8,822 bases of DNA, taken from the NCBI GenBank assembly GCA_019232645.1, contig JAFANO010000327.1, positions 1 to 8,822 of the forward strand, given 5' to 3'. A program made the translations under genes and the position numbers. Below the pieces are notes generated by a model that ran no database searches, was not told the origin of the DNA, and saw only the letters and a list, made by a program, of their open reading frames with translations. This DNA is from Planctomycetaceae bacterium. Lineage in GTDB: Bacteria > Planctomycetota > Planctomycetia > Isosphaerales > Isosphaeraceae. Every line of letters begins with the position of its first letter. Position 1 is the first letter of the stretch. Below are positions 294 through 8,822 of this stretch, in pieces.

Positions 294-644
294 CTAGGCG
301 CGGAGCTGCCTCGAAATATTCTCCGCTAATAATTTCAAATTTGAAATTTCAGATTTAAAATTATTAGCAGAGAATCCAGGAAGTTCACACATCAAGCACA
401 GCATCGAGCGAACCTCGCCCGCCGAGCCTCGCGCGATATACAGGAACGTGAGGAGCCCCTGGGTCGTCCCTCGCTCAAAACCCTCGGCGATGTTATTCGA
501 AATCGAGACGGCCGCCCTCTCGATCTGATCTCGAAGGCCGGAGTGCCCCGCGAAATCCGCCCGACTGGTCAAGGCGAAGAGCTGCACGCCGAGCTGGATG
601 CTGGCACGCCAGACCGGGAGGTCTTCGAAGCGCTCGTACGTCAT
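294..644 (-). CDS. Four helix bundle protein (S23/IVS-type family), shortened by an in-frame TAG
   Basis: The 116-residue product opens MTYERFEDLPVWRASIQLGV and contains LRDQIERAAVSISNNIAEGF and FLYIARGSAGEVRSML. These are the hallmark motifs of the four-helix-bundle family first described from proteins encoded in 23S rRNA intervening sequences (the DL-V-W start, the SNIAEG core, and the ARGS-EV helix). Members are small soluble helical proteins of unproven function; several form oligomers. No rRNA gene is present here. The ATG overlaps the stop of the upstream PKS as ATGA, indicating translational coupling; a GGGGAG stretch lies about 10 nt upstream. The core family length (about 115-125 residues) is complete, so the protein may still fold even though a TAG separates it from a further 55 in-frame codons. 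Residues NNFKSEISNLKLL are encoded by an AT-rich palindromic heptamer array, unlike the GC-rich PKS genes around it. The gene looks like a later insertion into the operon; any role with the PKS is unknown. Confidence 0.85.
   Translation of the reverse strand: MTYERFEDLPVWRASIQLGVQLFALTSRADFAGHSGLRDQIERAAVSISNNIAEGFERGTTQGLLTFLYIARGSAGEVRSMLCLMCELPGFSANNFKSEISNLKLLAENISRQLRA
318..375. repeat. 58-bp near-perfect palindrome inside the four-helix-bundle gene
   Basis: The sequence is symmetric about 346/347. The 29-bp arms pair throughout except for two mismatches (324/369 and 336/357) and one G-T wobble (341/352). The outer arms read ATTCTCCGCTAATAATTT on the left and, as the reverse complement of the right, ATTCTCTGCTAATAATTT. 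Transcribed, it would fold into one long hairpin with no real loop. It lies entirely within translated sequence and contributes about 19 residues, including the SNLK segment. It may be a small palindromic mobile repeat or the result of inverted duplication of heptamers. Confidence 0.8.
327..361 (-). repeat. Array of five AT-rich heptamers (coding)
   Basis: On the minus strand the segment divides exactly into ATTTTAA, ATCTGAA, ATTTCAA, ATTTGAA and ATTATTA. Every unit begins with AT and the set follows a 7-bp period. It forms the middle of the 58-bp palindrome. The units ATTTCA(A/G) and ATTTGA(A/G) also occur in the array between the two PKS genes. Heptanucleotide tandem repeats of this general type are known in cyanobacteria (the STRR class) and appear in planctomycete genomes; assignment to a named family would need a search. 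Confidence 0.75.
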
Positions 645-3600
645 CGCAGGCGACTCCCCTCACCCAGCGTCCAGGCCCAGACGAAATCGCCTCGCCGGGC
701 GGTCACGGCGCGGACGGGAATATTCTCCCAGTCGGGTGCCACTGCGAGGAGCTCGGGGCCGGGCACCACCGCAATCTCCCCGGTCCTCGGATCGACTCCG
801 ACAATAGCTGCGCTCAGAGGCCCGGCGAGCATTCCCAGCCCGGTCGCCTTGGCGACCGCCTCCCGGGCGCACCAGAACCGGGCGACCCATTCCTCGCGGT
901 CATGGCCGGCGTCGGCGAGCCGATCGAGCCGGGCGCGTTCGTCCTCCCGGAAGGCGACGGCCTCGAACCCGGGCGGCCGGTCGATCACCGGCTCGACGTC
1001 GACGCCGACGCGCGCGGCCGGGTCGAGCGCGGCCAGGGCGACCGCGACCCCCTCGGCGTGCGCGATCGAGACCGCGGGCAGGTCGTCGCGATCGGGCTCG
1101 AGCAGCGAGCGGAGCCGGGGACGGCCGCGCGGGTCGGGCTCGATGGCCAGGTCGGCCGGGAAGACGGGAGGTCCCCCCCGATCGGCCCAGAGGCGGCGGG
1201 CCGCCTCCTTGGCGGCGATCCGGCCCCAAAGCCGGAGCGTCCTCCGCGCGTCGGGCCCAGGCAACGCCCGGCATGCAGCACGTTCCTCGGGGCCGAGCTG
1301 GACCCACTCCAGCACGTCGCGCCAGACCGGCCGGCCCATGTCGGCCGGGGGTGCCAGCCAGACCGCCCGCACCGTTGAAGCAACCTCCGGCCCGGCCCCC
1401 GGCACGAACAGGGGTTCGCCCACGAAGACCCGGTCGGGCTGGCGGAACTGGTCGCGATAGCGGCTCGGCCAGTAGAACCGCCAGTCCTCCCAGCCGGTGA
1501 TCCGCATCCAGAGTCGGCCGTCGGGGCCGACGAGGTCGGCGTCGGCCAGCACCCGATGCCTTGAGACGTCACGGATCATGATCCGGCAGGCGACCTCGGC
1601 CCCTTCCGGCGGATCGGCACCCAGGATCGCCAGGTCCGCGACCCGGAGCGGGAAGATCACGTCCCCCTCGCCGTCGGGCACCTGGTCCAGCCCCCAGCAA
1701 CCCAGCAGGTGGGTGAAGGCGTCGACCACGATCGGGTCGGTCCGCAGCGCGTGCCGGTCCGACGCGCAGAGCAATCCCCGGCGGGGCAGGACCTTCAGCG
1801 TCCCCTCGATCCCGCATGGCGACGATGGCCCCACCCGGACCAACGCCTGCAAGGCAGGGCCGTGGAAGAGCCACTGGTCGGCGTAGAGCTCCCCGGCGGT
1901 GAACCGGCAGGTGCCCGCCCCTTCCAGGACGAACGGGGGGGCGATCGGTCCCGCCGCGCGGGCGTCGCCGAAGACGACGCGACCCGCGACGACCGGGCCC
2001 TCGACGGCCGACCTGTCGGCGCCATCGCGCCGGGACGACCCGGACCCCTTGTTGTGGATCGCGACGCGGACCTCGTCCGGCCGGACGGGGTCGCGATCCG
2101 CCCGGAGCTCCAGCGTGACCGGATCCTCCTCGTAGCGGATCCAGCGGTACGCCTGGACGTCGCGGAGCGCGACCACCGCGAGGCCGGGCATCAGCATCGC
2201 GGCGGCCTGCGCGAGCATCTCGGCCATCACCGCGAACGGGACGACCGGCAGGCCCTTGCGGCCCGGGTCAAGGGCCGAGACTCGCCTGCCGCCGAGCGTG
2301 TGGTGCTCGGCCACCGGGTCGTCGCGCGGGTCGAGCGTGCGGAGGGCGACCAGGGCGCGTCCCGGTTCCAGGCGCTGGATCGTCCCCACCCAGGGACCGG
2401 GCTCCTCGGATCCCGGCGGCGCCTCGGGTGCGAGGCGCGGCGCCGTCGGGCGGTGGCTCGCGGCGCGATAGGCATCCATCACCTGGTGCTGGGCCTCCAG
2501 GAACGCATCCATCGTCCGCAAGTAAGCCTCGACCGCCCTATCACGCGGGATCGGGGGCGGCGGAGATCGGTGCGCGAGGGCCTCCCCGGGGGAATCACCA
2601 TTCCGCTGCCTGACCGCCCCGGCACCGTTGGTCCCGGGCGCGACCGCTGCGAGACGGTCGGCGAGGAGCGGTCGCAACTCTCCCATGTTGATGTCGTGGC
2701 GCGCGCCGGGGCCGGGCTCGCGGAGCCGGGCGACCAGACCGGCCGAAAGCCGCATCTCGGGGAACCCGACCTTCAGCGCCGATCCCTCGCGCGGGGCGGG
2801 GAGATCGCGATCGAGGTCGATCCGGACCGGGCGGCGTCGGGCGTAGAGGTGATCGGGCCGGATCACCACGCCTTGCGCATAGAGCGACGCCATCAGATGA
2901 TTCAATTGGGTCAGACCCGAGCGCCTGGGGAGGTTGGCGGCGGCCGCGAAATGGGGACGGCCCCGGAGGATGTCCTCGACGAAGCCGGTGAGGTTCCCCC
3001 GCGCCCCGACCTCGACGAAGACCCGGATGCCGTCGGCGTGCATCGCCTCGATCGTCGACCGGAACGCGACGGGGAGGGCCCACTGCTCGATCGCCAGGCG
3101 GCGGATCGCCTCGACCCGATCGGCCATCCGGCCGGCGATCGCGCACGAGTAGATCGGCACCCGGGGGCGGCTCAGCGACAGGTCTTCGAAGAAGGCGCGG
3201 ACCGGCCCCAGCGCCTCCGCGAAGGCGGGCGTGTGATAGGCCCGGTCGAACGGCAGCGGCTCGCAGATCACCCCCCGGCCCCGGAGCCGGCCCATGACCG
3301 CCTCGGCGGCGTCGGCGGGCCCGGCGACCACGACCTGGTGCGGGCAGTTGTCGATGGCGATGGTCAGCCCGTCGCAGCCGACCTCGCGGCAGGCCCGCTC
3401 GACCTTCGCGCGGTCGGCGGCGACGGCGACCAGGCGCGCGCCCGGCACCCGGCCCGAGGCGTCGAGGTCCTCGAAGACCAGCCCCAGCTCGCCGAGCCGG
3501 TCTTCGAGCTGCCGGTCGACCTGCATCGCGCCCGACGCGGCCAGCGCGAGGAACTCGCCGCTGCTGTGTCCGACGACCGCGTCGGGCCGCAAGCCGAGCC

Positions 3601-5596
3601 GCATCAGCAACTGGTGTAAGGCCCATTGCCCCGAGAGCACCACGTTGATCGCCGTGCCGACCGTCCAGAGCCCGTCCCCCTCGTCTCCCGACCCGCCGAA
3701 GAGGACCTCGCTCGGCAGCCGGGCATACCCCCGCTCGAGGGCCACGCGGTCGGCCGTGTCGAACAGGGCGCGGACCTCGGGGAAGTGGGCGCAGAGGTCG
3801 GCCATCATGCCGGGATATTGCGAGCCCTCGCCGGGGAACAGGAAGGCGAGCGTCCCGGGGCCGGCCAGCGGCTGCTCCCAGAAATAGGCGCCGCGTGCGT
3901 CGCGGATCGATCGGCAGGCCGGGTCGACCAGCCGCGCGACCAGCGCCTTGAGCCGGTCCCCGAGGTCGGCCGGCGATGAAGCCACCAGCCCCGCGCGGGT
4001 CGTCGCCTCGGCCTGGCCGACGTTGATCGTGAACGCCAGGTCTTTCAGAGGGACGGAGCAGTTCCCGTCCCGCTCGAGCCAGTCGAGCAGCCCCCGCGCC
4101 CGGTCGATCAGGCCGGCGCGGTCGGGTGCGCCCAGCAAGATCGCCTCGGTCTCCCAACGGGTCTGGCAGCCGGGCGTGAGCCCGTCGGCCGACCGGGCGT
4201 GCTCTTCCAGGACCGCGTGCGCGTTGATCCCGGCGAAGCCGAAGGCGTTGACCCCCGCTCGCCTCGGATGGCGGCGGTCGCCGTGGATCCAGGGCCGGGC
4301 CGTCGCGCTCAGGGCGAAGGGGCTCCCCGCGTCGGCGAGCAGGGGGTGCGACGGGTCGGCGACCGGCGAGGGGGGCAGCACGCGATGGTGCAGCGCCAGG
4401 GCCGTCTTGATCAGCGCGGCCATCCCCGCCGCGGGCATCGCGTGCCCGATCAAGGCCGCGACGGCCCCCAGCGTGCGACGACCTCGGGGCGGCTTCGGGA
4501 AGACCGCCCGCAGCGCGCGCAGCTCGGCCCGGTCGGAGGCGGGGACCCCCAGGCCGTGCCCCTCGACGAGCCCGACCGACGCCGGGTCGATGCCCGACCG
4601 CCGGTATGCCCGCCGGATCGCCCGCGCATGCCCCTTGGCACCAGGCGAGGCCAGGCCGCACCCCCGGCCGTCACTGGCCAGCCCCACCCCCTTGAGCACC
4701 GCGTAGACGCGGTCGCCGTCGCGCTCGGCGTCCCGGAGCCGCTTGAGCACCACGACGCCCACCCCCTCGCCCGGCAAGGTCCCGTCGGCGTCCCGCGCGA
4801 AGGGCCGCGCCCGGCCCGACCTCGACAACGCGCCGAGCTGGCAGAAGACCATCGGGAAATCGACGTCGGCCGCGAGGTAGACCCCGCCGACCAGCGCCAG
4901 GTCGGCATGGCGGTCGACCAGGGCCCGCGCGCCGAGGTCGAGCGCCACCAGCGACGACGCGCTCGCGGCGTCGACGACGAAGCTCGCGCCGGCCAGGTCG
5001 AGCCGGTCGGCGACCCGCCCGGCGGTGGCGTTGGTCAACTGGCCGGGGATGGTCTCCGGCCCGAACGGCGGCAGGCTCGCCTTGAGGTCGGCGCGGACCG
5101 CCTCGGCGACCTCGTCCGTCCACTCGGGGTGCAGCATCCGGAGGATCGCGACCGTCTGGGCGACGATCCGGCCGTGCTGGAGCCGGGTCAGGTTCCCGCG
5201 GTTGAAATAGTTGCCCCGGCCGATCACGACCTGGACGCGACGGCCGTCGGGGACGCCGTCGGCCAGCCCGGCGTCGGCCAGCGCAGCCCGGGCCGCGTCG
5301 AGGACCAGGAACTGCTCGGGCTCGCCCCCCTCGACGGTCCGGGGCATGATCCCGTACGCCGCGGCGTCGAAATCGATCGCCCCGTCGAGATACCCCCCGC
5401 GCCGGCAATAGACCCGGTCGTTGGCCGTCGCGTCGGGGTCGAAGAAGACGGTCGGGTCCCAGCGATCGGGGGGGACGTCGCCCGTGCGCTCCCGAGCCGC
5501 GACCAGGTCCTCCCAGAACGCGGCGGCGTCGCGCGCCCCAGGGAACCGGCACGCCAGCCCAACAATCGCGATATCCAGCGGTCGACCGGCGTTCAT
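641..5596 (-). CDS. Type I polyketide/secondary-lipid synthase subunit: KS(Ser)-AT-DH-PPTase
   Basis: A 1651-residue multidomain synthase, probably cytoplasmic and iterative. Residues ~8-465 are a ketosynthase opening DIAIVGLACRFPG, but the active-site motif is VDAASASS with Ser212 for Cys. HGLGV keeps His347 and IGH keeps His385, while the usual Lys five residues before it is Ala380. Residues ~580-885 are an acyltransferase with FPGEGSQYPGM, GHSSGE (Ser678) and YHT (His788); Glu703 sits where malonyl-specific enzymes have Arg. A linker carries a helical motif (AFLEAQHQVM, 1031-1040). Residues ~1085-1375 are a double-hotdog dehydratase with His1098/His1099 in EHHTLGG and Asp1292 in VDAFTH. 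Residues ~1400-1645 are an Sfp-type phosphopantetheinyl transferase with GRP (1491), SIAH (1510), GVDVE (Asp1533, Glu1535) and WCAREAVAK (Glu1579, Lys1583). No ACP domain is present, so it should act on the ACP of the upstream subunit. The start is forced: ATG 5596 is the only start codon after an in-frame TAA at 5629-5627, and no clear Shine-Dalgarno is seen. The architecture recalls Pfa-type PUFA and heterocyst glycolipid synthases; the product cannot be predicted. Confidence 0.93.
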   Translation of the reverse strand: MNAGRPLDIAIVGLACRFPGARDAAAFWEDLVAARERTGDVPPDRWDPTVFFDPDATANDRVYCRRGGYLDGAIDFDAAAYGIMPRTVEGGEPEQFLVLDAARAALADAGLADGVPDGRRVQVVIGRGNYFNRGNLTRLQHGRIVAQTVAILRMLHPEWTDEVAEAVRADLKASLPPFGPETIPGQLTNATAGRVADRLDLAGASFVVDAASASSLVALDLGARALVDRHADLALVGGVYLAADVDFPMVFCQLGALSRSGRARPFARDADGTLPGEGVGVVVLKRLRDAERDGDRVYAVLKGVGLASDGRGCGLASPGAKGHARAIRRAYRRSGIDPASVGLVEGHGLGVPASDRAELRALRAVFPKPPRGRRTLGAVAALIGHAMPAAGMAALIKTALALHHRVLPPSPVADPSHPLLADAGSPFALSATARPWIHGDRRHPRRAGVNAFGFAGINAHAVLEEHARSADGLTPGCQTRWETEAILLGAPDRAGLIDRARGLLDWLERDGNCSVPLKDLAFTINVGQAEATTRAGLVASSPADLGDRLKALVARLVDPACRSIRDARGAYFWEQPLAGPGTLAFLFPGEGSQYPGMMADLCAHFPEVRALFDTADRVALERGYARLPSEVLFGGSGDEGDGLWTVGTAINVVLSGQWALHQLLMRLGLRPDAVVGHSSGEFLALAASGAMQVDRQLEDRLGELGLVFEDLDASGRVPGARLVAVAADRAKVERACREVGCDGLTIAIDNCPHQVVVAGPADAAEAVMGRLRGRGVICEPLPFDRAYHTPAFAEALGPVRAFFEDLSLSRPRVPIYSCAIAGRMADRVEAIRRLAIEQWALPVAFRSTIEAMHADGIRVFVEVGARGNLTGFVEDILRGRPHFAAAANLPRRSGLTQLNHLMASLYAQGVVIRPDHLYARRRPVRIDLDRDLPAPREGSALKVGFPEMRLSAGLVARLREPGPGARHDINMGELRPLLADRLAAVAPGTNGAGAVRQRNGDSPGEALAHRSPPPPIPRDRAVEAYLRTMDAFLEAQHQVMDAYRAASHRPTAPRLAPEAPPGSEEPGPWVGTIQRLEPGRALVALRTLDPRDDPVAEHHTLGGRRVSALDPGRKGLPVVPFAVMAEMLAQAAAMLMPGLAVVALRDVQAYRWIRYEEDPVTLELRADRDPVRPDEVRVAIHNKGSGSSRRDGADRSAVEGPVVAGRVVFGDARAAGPIAPPFVLEGAGTCRFTAGELYADQWLFHGPALQALVRVGPSSPCGIEGTLKVLPRRGLLCASDRHALRTDPIVVDAFTHLLGCWGLDQVPDGEGDVIFPLRVADLAILGADPPEGAEVACRIMIRDVSRHRVLADADLVGPDGRLWMRITGWEDWRFYWPSRYRDQFRQPDRVFVGEPLFVPGAGPEVASTVRAVWLAPPADMGRPVWRDVLEWVQLGPEERAACRALPGPDARRTLRLWGRIAAKEAARRLWADRGGPPVFPADLAIEPDPRGRPRLRSLLEPDRDDLPAVSIAHAEGVAVALAALDPAARVGVDVEPVIDRPPGFEAVAFREDERARLDRLADAGHDREEWVARFWCAREAVAKATGLGMLAGPLSAAIVGVDPRTGEIAVVPGPELLAVAPDWENIPVRAVTARRGDFVWAWTLGEGSRLR

Positions 5597-5636
5597 CGGT
5601 GGCCCGGGGTCCCGTGTAAAATCATTTTAGAATAAT

Positions 5637-5663
5637 ATTATATATTTAAATATTTAATCTCAA
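5637..5663 (-). promoter_or_regulatory. Possible sigma-70-like promoter before the second PKS subunit
   Basis: The minus strand has TTGAGA (5663-5658) and, 15 bp on, TATAAT (5642-5637); with TAATAT (5640-5635) instead, the spacing is 17 bp. Transcription would start about 30-35 bp before ATG 5596. The segment is almost pure A+T, so such matches are expected by chance, and part of the -35 box belongs to the heptamer array. It may give the second subunit extra expression independent of the operon promoter. Confidence 0.22.
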
Positions 5664-5693
5664 ATCCGGAATCTGGAATATGGAATCTGAAAT
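5645..5693 (-). repeat. Array of seven AT-rich heptamers between the PKS genes
   Basis: The minus strand divides exactly into ATTTCAG, ATTCCAT, ATTCCAG, ATTCCGG, ATTTGAG, ATTAAAT and ATTTAAA. All seven units start with ATT and keep a strict 7-bp period. It makes up the centre of the 128-bp gap (5597-5724) between the PKS subunits, which otherwise holds only a GC-rich leader before ATG 5596 and a short stretch after the stop at 5725. The last units include a 12-bp perfect palindrome (5646-5657). It belongs to the same kind of repeat as 327-361 and has the same orientation. Confidence 0.75.
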
Positions 5694-5724
5694 TTCAAAG
5701 AGCCTGGGATCTCGAGCCGCCGGA

Positions 5725-8700
5725 TCATCGCGACACGGCCTCCTCGGGCCGGACGTCGAGGTCGCCGTCGGCGGTGGGGTCGGAGGTGGCCGGATCCTCG
5801 AGGGACCCGAGGTCGCCCGCGACCACGACCTCGACATCTCCCCCGGTCCCTCGACTCAGCTCGTCGGCCAGGCGCGACGCCCCGAGCTCGGGCACGATCA
5901 TCCCGAGGCCGCGGCGGCCGAGGTGGTCCTCCAGGTCGGAGACCATGCCGACGCCCGACCAGGGGCCCCAGATCATCGAGACGACCCGGCCCGGCCAGCG
6001 CCGGTCGAGCCAGATCGCCAGCTTGTTGAGGGCTTCGTTGGCGGCGGCATAGTCGGCCTGTCCGCGGTTGCCGAACCGGCCGGCCACCGACGAGAAGAAT
6101 GCGGCGAACCGCAGCGACTCGGGTGCGACCAGTCGGGCGAGCGTCAGGGCCCCTTCCACCTTGGTGCCGAGCACTCGGTCGAACGACTCGGGGGTCTTGT
6201 CGCGGAGCAGCCTGTCCTGGATCACCCCCGCGCCGTGGATCAGCCCGGCGATCGGGCCGAACCGCTCGCGCCAGCGGTCGAGGACCTGGCGCATCGCCTC
6301 GTCGTCGCGGACGTCGGCCCGCGCGTATTCGACGGTCGCCCCCGCCTCCTGGAAGATTTTGAGGTTCTCGCGGATCTCGCGCTGGCGGCGCAACGCCTGG
6401 TAGGCCCGCTCCAGTTCGGGGGGGCTGACCGGCATCCCCCCGCGCGCGAGGACCTGGTGGAGGATGGTCTTGAGTTCGGCCGGCGCGGTGACGCCGCGAG
6501 TAGCCGGTTCCTCGGACTTGGAGGGCAGCGGGCTGGTCCCGACCAGCAGGAGGGTCGGCCGCCAGCGGCGGGCCAGGTCGGCCGCGACGGCCGCCGTGAT
6601 CCCGCGCGCCCCGCCCGTGATCAGGAGCGGCTCCCCCTGGGCGAGCGCGACGCCGAGGCCCTCGGCGTCCGGCAACGCGGCCTCGACGGCGCGGAGGACC
6701 ATCCGTCGGCGCTGGACGTAGCCGACTTCCGCGCAGCCATCGCGGGCCTGGACTTCCTGGACCAGGTCCGCGGCCCGGAGTTCGACGTCGAGGAGCGGGT
6801 CGAGGTCCACGACGCGGACGCGGACCGAGCGGGGCCACTCGCGGGCGAGCGTCTTGACCAGCCCCGCGACGGCGCCATGGCCGGGGAAGAAGTCGGCGGG
6901 CACCAGGCCGGCGGTGGCGAAGCCTCCGCCCATCGCGGTCGCCGCGATCAGGCAGGCGCCGCCGCGACCTGCCGCGCGGGCCAGGTCGTCCGCCGAGGCC
7001 CGCGCCAGCAGGAACAGCCCCCGGACCTCCGGGCCCAGCCGCGACGACCAGGCCTGCGGATCGAGGCCGGCCGGGGGCATCTCCCGGAGCGGCAGCGCGT
7101 GCACGATCCCCGCCAGCGGGCCGAGTCCCCGGACGCGGTCGAGCAGCGCGGCCACCTCGGCCGGAGAGGTCAGGTCGGAGCACTCGACGGTCTCCCCCGG
7201 CCCGGCCAGGGGGGCCGACCCGTGCCCGACCCGGATCACCGGATGCCCCTTGGCGCGAAGGTCGGCGGCCACGGCACGCGCGACACCCTGGCGGTCATCG
7301 GTCACCAGGACCAGGCCCCCTGCCATCAATCCCGTCCCTCGGGGACAATGGGGCAGCGGGGCGGCGACCGCCTCGAGCGTGAGCCGGCGGACCCGCGCGT
7401 CGGGCTCGTGGCCCTGACCGCGTGCCGGTGCGGGAGGCGTCGAGGGGCCGGTGGCCGCCTCGCGCGGCCCGGTCGCGTCGACCGCCCGGGCCAGCCGATC
7501 GACGATCGCCCCGAGCGTCCGGGCCCTCGAGAGCTGGTCCATCATCTCGGAGTCGGAGCCGAACGCCGACGAGGGCAGGGCCTCGCGCAGGCTCCCCAGG
7601 ATCTCCACGCGCTTGATCGAGTCGATCCCCAGGTCGGCCTCCAGGTCGAGGTCGAGCCGGAGCATCTCGGCGGGATACCCCGTCCGCTCGCGGACGATCG
7701 CCAGGAGGCGCGCGGCCAGTTCCTCTCGGCCCAGGCGTTCGGGGGCGGATACGGGCTTCGGCGGCGCCGGCTCGACCCGCGCCGGCGGTGCCGCGGGGGC
7801 GCGACGGAGGAGATCCGGCTCTTCCTCGATGTGGAGGGGACGGGAGGGCAGGTCGGGTGCGCCTTGCCCAGTGAGGAGCGTGAGCATCGCCGTGCGTTGG
7901 ACTTCCAGGAACGCCTGCATGGTCTTCTGGAATTCTACGAACGCGCGCTCGACGCCGTCGGACGGGCCGGAGGCGGCCGAGGTGATCGGGCGGGCCCCGA
8001 GCTCGGGCAGGACCGTCCCATTCTTGTGGGGGGCGTGGGCCGTCCCGTTGCGAGACAGGGCCGGTCCCGGCGCAGGCAACGCGGGGCCGACACCGAGGCG
8101 CGCCGGCTCGGGGCCGGAGGCCGGGCGTGCCCGGCTGCCGTTGACCAGCCAGGCGGAGGGGGAGAGCGGCTCGGCGTCGGGTTCGGCCGTGAATCGGGTC
8201 GGGTCGAGCCGGCGCGCGGCGCGGCCTGCGGTCAGCCGATCGAGCCGCAGTGGCACGCCCGCGACGAGCAACCGGCCCAGCGTCATCAAGAGGCCCGGCA
8301 GGCCGCGTTGCCCCGGGGGCTCGCAGGCCACCGCCAGGTGCGGCCGGTCGCCCAGGATCGAGCCGACCATGCCGGTCAGGGCCGCGCCCGGGCCGACCTC
8401 GACGAAGATCCGGGCGCCTTCGGCGTGCATCGCCTCGACCATCTCCGCGAACCGGACCGGCCGCGTCAGGTGGTCTCCGAGCTGCGCGGCGATCGCATCG
8501 ACCTCGGCCGGATAGGGCGCGGCCGTCACGTTCGAGAAGACGGGGAGGCGCGGGGGCTTCATCCCGATCCGGGAGGCGAGCGCGGCCAGCGGTTCCCGCG
8601 CCCCGGCCACCAGCGGCGAATGGAAGGCGCAGGCGACCGGCAGGACCTGGCCCCGGACGCCGGCCCGCCGGGCCCGCTCGACCGCCTCGGCCACCGCCGC

Positions 8701-8822
8701 CCGGGTCCCCGAGATCACCGTCTGACTCGGCCCGTTCCAGTTGACGGCGGCGACGTCTCCCAGCCCTTCCAAGATCGCGGCGACCTGCTCAGGCCCGGCC
8801 ACCAGCGCGGCCATCGCACCCG
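5725..8822 (-). CDS. Type I polyketide/secondary-lipid synthase subunit, C-terminal part: AT-ACP-KR (starts beyond right edge)
   Basis: The frame is open to the window end, and the codons before the Met at 8814 read Gly-Ala, giving GAMAAL, an internal acyltransferase motif. The true start is therefore outside the window, and an upstream KS plus the rest of the AT are expected there. Numbering from codon 8814: residues 1-205 are the AT C-terminal part with catalytic His65 in CAFHSPL; 206-360 are a low-complexity linker containing a helical motif (AFLEVQRTAM, 301-310) and a Pro/Ala-rich segment; ~362-445 are one acyl carrier domain with LGIDSIKRVEIL, where Ser399 takes phosphopantetheine; ~495-705 are the non-catalytic half of a ketoreductase; and ~725-1000 are the catalytic half with TGGARGIT (NADPH binding), HGAGVIQD, Ser909, Tyr922 (DYAAAN) and Asn926. 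The ACP and KR motifs closely resemble PfaA and heterocyst glycolipid synthases, but only one ACP is present rather than a tandem row, and no DH follows the KR; the DH is on the next gene. The protein would load, carry and reduce the growing chain in the cytoplasm. Confidence 0.92.
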   Translation of the reverse strand, partial: GAMAALVAGPEQVAAILEGLGDVAAVNWNGPSQTVISGTRAAVAEAVERARRAGVRGQVLPVACAFHSPLVAGAREPLAALASRIGMKPPRLPVFSNVTAAPYPAEVDAIAAQLGDHLTRPVRFAEMVEAMHAEGARIFVEVGPGAALTGMVGSILGDRPHLAVACEPPGQRGLPGLLMTLGRLLVAGVPLRLDRLTAGRAARRLDPTRFTAEPDAEPLSPSAWLVNGSRARPASGPEPARLGVGPALPAPGPALSRNGTAHAPHKNGTVLPELGARPITSAASGPSDGVERAFVEFQKTMQAFLEVQRTAMLTLLTGQGAPDLPSRPLHIEEEPDLLRRAPAAPPARVEPAPPKPVSAPERLGREELAARLLAIVRERTGYPAEMLRLDLDLEADLGIDSIKRVEILGSLREALPSSAFGSDSEMMDQLSRARTLGAIVDRLARAVDATGPREAATGPSTPPAPARGQGHEPDARVRRLTLEAVAAPLPHCPRGTGLMAGGLVLVTDDRQGVARAVAADLRAKGHPVIRVGHGSAPLAGPGETVECSDLTSPAEVAALLDRVRGLGPLAGIVHALPLREMPPAGLDPQAWSSRLGPEVRGLFLLARASADDLARAAGRGGACLIAATAMGGGFATAGLVPADFFPGHGAVAGLVKTLAREWPRSVRVRVVDLDPLLDVELRAADLVQEVQARDGCAEVGYVQRRRMVLRAVEAALPDAEGLGVALAQGEPLLITGGARGITAAVAADLARRWRPTLLLVGTSPLPSKSEEPATRGVTAPAELKTILHQVLARGGMPVSPPELERAYQALRRQREIRENLKIFQEAGATVEYARADVRDDEAMRQVLDRWRERFGPIAGLIHGAGVIQDRLLRDKTPESFDRVLGTKVEGALTLARLVAPESLRFAAFFSSVAGRFGNRGQADYAAANEALNKLAIWLDRRWPGRVVSMIWGPWSGVGMVSDLEDHLGRRGLGMIVPELGASRLADELSRGTGGDVEVVVAGDLGSLEDPATSDPTADGDLDVRPEEAVSR

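Follow-up and report, generated by a model that had tools for sequence, protein, structure and literature searches.

The window, by which we mean the whole stretch of 8822 bases analysed here, is contig C359 of a fragmented genome of the Isosphaeraceae (81% complete, 777 contigs), and it carries on its minus strand two adjoining genes for the subunits of a fatty-acid-type synthase. The frame at 5596-641 encodes the second subunit, a protein of 1651 residues with matches to ketosynthase (KS), acyltransferase (AT), dehydratase (DH) and phosphopantetheinyl transferase domains. The subject of this report is its N-terminal pseudo-ketosynthase domain, KS' (residues 1-465; 4202-5596, minus strand), which matches both the N- and the C-terminal Pfam ketoacyl-synt models and has a KS fold in an AlphaFold2 model. 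On the same strand follow an acyltransferase, AT2 (residues 585-880; 2957-3844), assigned by Pfam Acyl_transf_1 and by motif counts and carrying GHSSG with Ser678 and RAYHT with His788, a DH region (residues 1238-1368; 1493-1885; Pfam PS-DH match) and a 4'-phosphopantetheinyl transferase domain (residues 1529-1595; 812-1012; Pfam ACPS match). The upstream subunit is present only as its 3' part (5725-8820, minus strand), which holds the end of the acyltransferase AT1, an acyl carrier protein domain (ACP) and a ketoreductase (KR); its ketosynthase, KS1, and its enoyl reductase (ER) lie beyond the contig end.

Translation places Ser212 (AGC, 4963-4961) at the catalytic Cys site, within a nucleophile motif that reads VDAASASS, and Ala380 (GCG, 4459-4457) at the catalytic Lys site, with His347 (4558-4556) and His385 (4444-4442) retained. 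The original prediction had named these four residues, with the codons and coordinates of the two replacements, and on all four it was right. It did not mention that the first His motif reads HGLGV (residues 347-351; 4544-4558) in place of HGTGT, by which two further conserved residues, both Thr, are lost, and the Ala380 it described is not typical, being found in just 4 of 161 full-length relatives, where Ser is usual at this position. The Thr pair of HGTGT binds phosphopantetheine. KS' therefore has neither the Cys-His-His triad with Lys of an active beta-ketoacyl synthase nor its HGTGT motif.

These losses are shared by the close relatives, which here and below are drawn from the best 120 of 6432 homologues of the window protein and the best 120 of 1058 of a relative in which KS' is gutted; outside the Isosphaeraceae the spread of the Ser type is known from these best-hit protein lists, from the best 120 of 7988 homologues of an acidobacterial second subunit (L013) and from 17 loci. 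Among the best 120 of 6432, 116 carry Ser and four carry Gly at position 212, none has Lys at position 380, His385 is invariant (120/120), and the Thr residues of HGTGT are replaced by Leu in all 120 and by Val in 111, respectively. For a wider count 72 proteins were added from the gutted-relative search, giving 192, of which 18 were set aside (two without a recognisable AT motif, 16 N-terminally truncated or badly aligned), leaving 174 usable proteins, 161 full length and 13 gutted. Three of the 16 (P0261, P0263 and P0264) begin with the first KS strand and lack the KS catalytic motifs, and are taken as gutted too. The 161 best-listed full-length relatives have Ser (156), Gly (4) or His (1) at position 212, His347 in 155 and His385 in all 161. 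As none has Cys, the check called for in the original prediction, whether orthologues conserve the Ser, is answered in its favour; as none has Gln at the Cys site and none has Lys, the KSQ-type starter that it also offered is not supported. A strain mutation or a sequencing error is ruled out by the 116 of 120 best-listed homologues with Ser and by a 99% identical protein among them (P0001), which has Ser at the nucleophile site and Ser, not Ala, at 380. Recent decay of the window gene is likewise ruled out, as the gene is full length and conserved.

The homologues of L013 are of the ancestral kind of active site: 119 of 119 that could be read have Cys-His-Lys-His, the remaining one of the best 120 being cut off at the nucleophile site. 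Within the Isosphaeraceae a paralogous gene pair also has Cys in the five genomes read, and three genomes (G011, G027 and G031) carry both pairs; in the paralogous second subunits (L058-L062) the second His motif is ISH rather than IGH in 5/5 genomes. On a tree of 73 hand-picked KS domains from which the catalytic motifs had been removed, the 28 Ser rows form a single branch (100/100) within a group of 55 second-subunit rows (100/94), so that one change of state suffices for the Ser type; the tree does not settle which rows are sister to them. One row chosen as a Cys-type second subunit, L019, falls outside the group, next to a polyketide synthase (PKS) of the window genome. Since the upstream KS1 group has Cys as well, Cys is the older state, and the sequences indicate that the Ser type arose once, from a Cys-bearing condensing domain. 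In Singulisphaera sp. GP187 (L012, L070) the second subunit lies in two overlapping frames with a break near residue 636, either a natural split or a frameshift.

Unlike KS', the ketosynthase of the upstream subunit appears to be equipped for condensation. KS1 reads VDAACGSS in 19 of the 19 loci read, and its HGTGT and Lys are intact in the loci checked for them, a set that lies outside G016 and G019. In the window genome itself the KS1 signature was not found among the ten KS hits of the 777 contigs. The genome does encode a separate protein resembling a KS with a chain-length factor (CLF) (contig C481; L006, L010), which matches PfaC 6riw across both domains and whose CLF reads VSSEETSG at the nucleophile with the Lys and both His columns kept. 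The upstream subunit of Singulisphaera acidiphila has the order ER-KS-AT-ACP-KR, its PfaD-like enoyl reductase, of the nitronate monooxygenase fold, being fused ahead of KS1 (L020:2521-9921, plus strand); the acidobacterial upstream subunit of L013 has the same fusion and a dehydratase at its end.

The two acyltransferases differ as well. The malonyl-site Arg and a Phe-His pair are present in 21 of 21 rows of AT1 (19 genomes, two counted twice), whereas the same column holds no Arg in any of 240 AT2 sequences, the window protein included, and AT2 has Tyr-His in 120/120 of the Ser set. The available text of PMC12895367 gives xAFH as specific to malonyl transferases. Judged by these motifs, AT2 is not of malonyl type. 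AT2 of the Cys-type homologues lacks the malonyl Arg too, and a non-malonyl AT is therefore likely to be older than the death of the KS.

The original prediction held that a KS without Cys and Lys is nevertheless under selection, and the identities agree with it. They were calculated for ten genomes with a full domain and six with a degraded one out of 19 loci, leaving aside G008, G031 and G038 (two without a motif-detectable second subunit and a third with a short frame). Mean pairwise identity among the ten full-length genomes is 0.683 for KS', compared with 0.756 for KS1, 0.561 for AT2, 0.556 for AT1 and 0.526 for DH. In the six degraded loci the domain has been lost to different extents: G040 retains 443 of the 465 positions but neither the nucleophile nor either His, while 303 positions remain in G027, 199 in G021, 195 in G019 and 159 in both G016 and G017; a seventh genome, G018, has a short N-terminus like that of G016. 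By eye the gutted remnants are alike, with an IVGM first strand, an AL.DAG helix, LKR..DA.R.GDRIYAVI, L.L.HRV.P, RPW...PRR and the last strand, and the sequence of the catalytic pocket is absent from them. On a 20-row tree built from the remainder of both genes, well-supported branches make four changes of state necessary to account for the degraded domains; all four are losses unless the full domain of G013 was regained, a course we judge implausible. KS' thus appears to have been degraded in about four lineages, in three of them down to 159-303 of 465 positions. Between the six degraded genomes and the full-length ones the mean identity of AT2 is 0.543-0.606 (0.561 among full-length genomes) and that of KS1 is 0.717-0.782 (0.756), and by these values the neighbouring domains are not decaying. 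G021 is lower throughout, as in its ER (0.569 vs 0.654); this genome, like G016 and G017, also has a shortened phosphopantetheinyl transferase.

The structure alignments covered 67 of 240 listed proteins. The model of KS' superimposes on the KS of PksL (5e5n) at 1.7 Å over 411 residues. In the model of residues 1-905 (2882-5596, minus strand) the AT is predicted in a position relative to the KS unlike that in the listed didomain PKS structures (21-25 Å with both domains aligned). The model of a gutted relative, L017, aligns with Shewanella baltica PfaB (9RY8) at 3.8 Å over 543 residues and with didomain synthases at 17-22 Å. PfaB 9RY8 was absent from the 50 structure matches listed for the window model, lists that were taken up by structures of full-length KS and KS-AT.

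We think it probable that KS' is a non-condensing scaffold for the fused AT, a role that has been suggested for the PfaB pseudo-KS of marine bacteria making omega-3 fatty acids, and that the upstream KS1 makes all the C-C bonds. What leads us to this proposal is the loss of the residues across close relatives together with their single origin from a Cys type, the intact motif of KS1, an AT2 without the malonyl Arg, the repeated degradation of KS' with its neighbours kept and the PfaB-like model of the gutted relative. The first subunit (ER-KS1-AT1-ACP-KR) would elongate the chain with malonyl loaded by AT1; in the second subunit DH would dehydrate, the phosphopantetheinyl transferase would activate the ACP, AT2 would transfer or off-load the long chain and KS' would position AT2 and possibly the ACP too.

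Several observations weigh against the scaffold proposal. Ranked by conservation against sequence windows from the Ser set, the three pocket segments of KS' come out high (94th, 96th and 90th percentile), beyond what a simple scaffold would require, and a scaffold alone leaves the remodelled pocket unexplained. As the Cys-type AT2 is also without the Arg, the type of the AT is by itself no argument for a dead KS, and 9/120 Ser-set and 1/120 Cys-set ATs have an Arg-Gly pair no more than three columns away from the malonyl site, so that a few are possibly misaligned. The comparison with PfaB concerns the gutted relative, with low-confidence stretches in its KS remnant (residues 40-77), rather than the window protein, and 9RY8 ranked 24 and 32 in two structure-match lists, not at the top by E or Z. 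The second subunit scores 17.3 bits with the PfaB model TIGR02816, for which the cut-off is 144.3, and its AT2 motifs, GHSSG and RAYHT, depart from GYSxG and [NT]A[IM]H[ST], given as the motifs of bacterial PfaB-AT in the accessible part of PMC12895367.

Strong conservation of the pocket and a nearly uniform HGLGV suggest that the full-length form has a further role, in binding or in folding, and the remodelled pocket (Ser212, HGLGV, His385) probably has such an extra, non-condensing role there, which some lineages gave up. It is possible, and we offer it tentatively, that a condensing enzyme was converted stepwise into a PfaB-type pseudo-KS with every stage still alive, the Ser-type pocket having taken on a new non-condensing job, e.g., keeping the completed acyl chain in place for the AT, before some lineages shed it. 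The stages, as tentative as the conversion itself, would be the active enzyme (the homologues and the paralogous pair), the Ser type with its new pocket (Ser, HGLGV, Ser, His), the full-length domain without catalytic residues and the gutted core of ~160-200 residues.

The conservation of the full-length domain may also be accounted for in another way. The original prediction suggested that KS' could be a CLF-like partner of the upstream KS1 in an active heterodimer; in such a pair, formed in trans, KS' would shape the acyl tunnel where the two proteins meet. The genes of both subunits are neighbours on the same strand, the conservation of KS' over the whole domain is not much lower than that of KS1 and block 131-185, which we take to hold the residues facing the partner's acyl pocket (FabF numbering), is the most variable in active KS2 domains (0th percentile) and average in KS' (44th to 53rd). 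The KS1 domains of these loci, however, are likewise better conserved in this block than KS1 domains from elsewhere (0.74 vs 0.53), and the similar shift means that sampling accounts for part of the signal. The domain groups with KS2 domains (86/77) and not with the KS-CLF of C481, although a clade with the long-branched C481 CLF is not rejected (p-AU 0.267). The fused AT is not of malonyl type, and for the gutted relative a PfaB-like arrangement of KS and AT is predicted. A CLF role would explain the conservation of KS' but not why it was degraded in about four lineages while KS1 conservation did not clearly change, and we regard such a role as unlikely.

The same degradation bears on the two readings that remain. 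Catalysis by Ser212 and His, as a KSQ-like malonyl decarboxylase or as an acyl transferase with a Ser nucleophile, would suit the near constancy of Ser212 and His385 (156 and 161 of the 161 full-length close relatives) and the highly conserved pocket segments, and yet Gly or His stands at 212 in five of these relatives, His347 is replaced in six, the Thr pair and the Lys are gone and the gutted relatives have no pocket sequence at all; we hold this to be quite improbable. That KS' is a functionless relic being lost would agree with the degradation in about four lineages and with the fast divergence of G040 (end branch of 1.38 on the 73-row tree), but KS' is more conserved than the adjacent AT2 and DH in the ten full-length genomes and the gutted forms retain similar core elements, as judged by eye, which makes a relic very improbable.

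Downstream of the synthase gene an ORF at 294-644 (minus strand) matches the 23S rRNA intervening-sequence (four-helix) protein PF05635, and its start codon overlaps the synthase stop codon (ATGA); in S. acidiphila a phosphopantetheine-binding ORF is found directly downstream instead (L020:14832-15257). The 128-base gap between the subunit genes (5597-5724, minus strand) holds an AT-rich stretch within a GC-rich locus, and the ORF at 294-644 ends in FKSEISNLK, a tail that gives the impression of a repeat element that may be related to it.

Among known systems, the KSQ loading domains of GfsA and PikA1 are similar in having a Cys-less KS of the same fold ahead of an AT. KSQ domains keep the Lys and both His, and they carry Gln where KS' carries Ser, without Lys and without HGTGT. 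The KS-CLF didomain of PfaC (6riw) also has a Cys-less domain of KS fold in a synthase of the polyunsaturated fatty acid (PUFA) type, but there KS and CLF share one chain, the CLF coming second, whereas the dead KS of the window is N-terminal and stands alone. With the PfaA subfamily model TIGR02813 the score is 495.2 bits against a cut-off of 1010.1, which indicates only kinship to PUFA-type synthases. The fused pfaBC of secondary lipid synthases likewise unites domains resembling those of PfaB and PfaC in a single gene beside a PfaA-like gene, and in Ottowia a pfaD-pfaA fusion is described, as is a pfaBC that lacks the KS-CLF, as far as the available portions of Shulse and Allen 2011 (PMC3098273) and of PMC13291983 go; in these portions Singulisphaera and Isosphaera are not mentioned in the former, planctomycetes are not mentioned in the latter and a Ser-type KS appears in neither.

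The closest likeness is to PfaB (KS'-AT), in which an inactive KS precedes a non-malonyl AT. PfaB is reported, in the sections of PMC12895367 at hand, to be a monomer with a pseudo-KS only ~18% identical to active domains, for which its authors propose a scaffold role. In both proteins the pseudo-KS is N-terminal and without a complete Cys-His-His triad, that of the window lacking Cys and Lys with both His present, and the gutted relative L017 is predicted to share the domain arrangement of 9RY8. Unlike in PfaB, the window has a full-length KS that retains both His, shares its chain with DH and phosphopantetheinyl transferase and has Cys-bearing homologues at the same gene position, and since neither the family model nor the AT motifs nor the gene architecture agree we do not file it as PfaB. 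Genome mining by domain models would score KS' as a working extension step, as it passes both Pfam ketosynthase cut-offs. The history of the PfaB pseudo-KS is hard to read at such low identity, whereas here the Cys-bearing, dead full-length and gutted forms can be aligned, and the aligned series allows one to ask which parts of a ketosynthase are required to hold an acyltransferase. By analogy, the domain likely works like that of PfaB, as a pseudo-ketosynthase of the PUFA-synthase type with an evolutionary path that can still be read.
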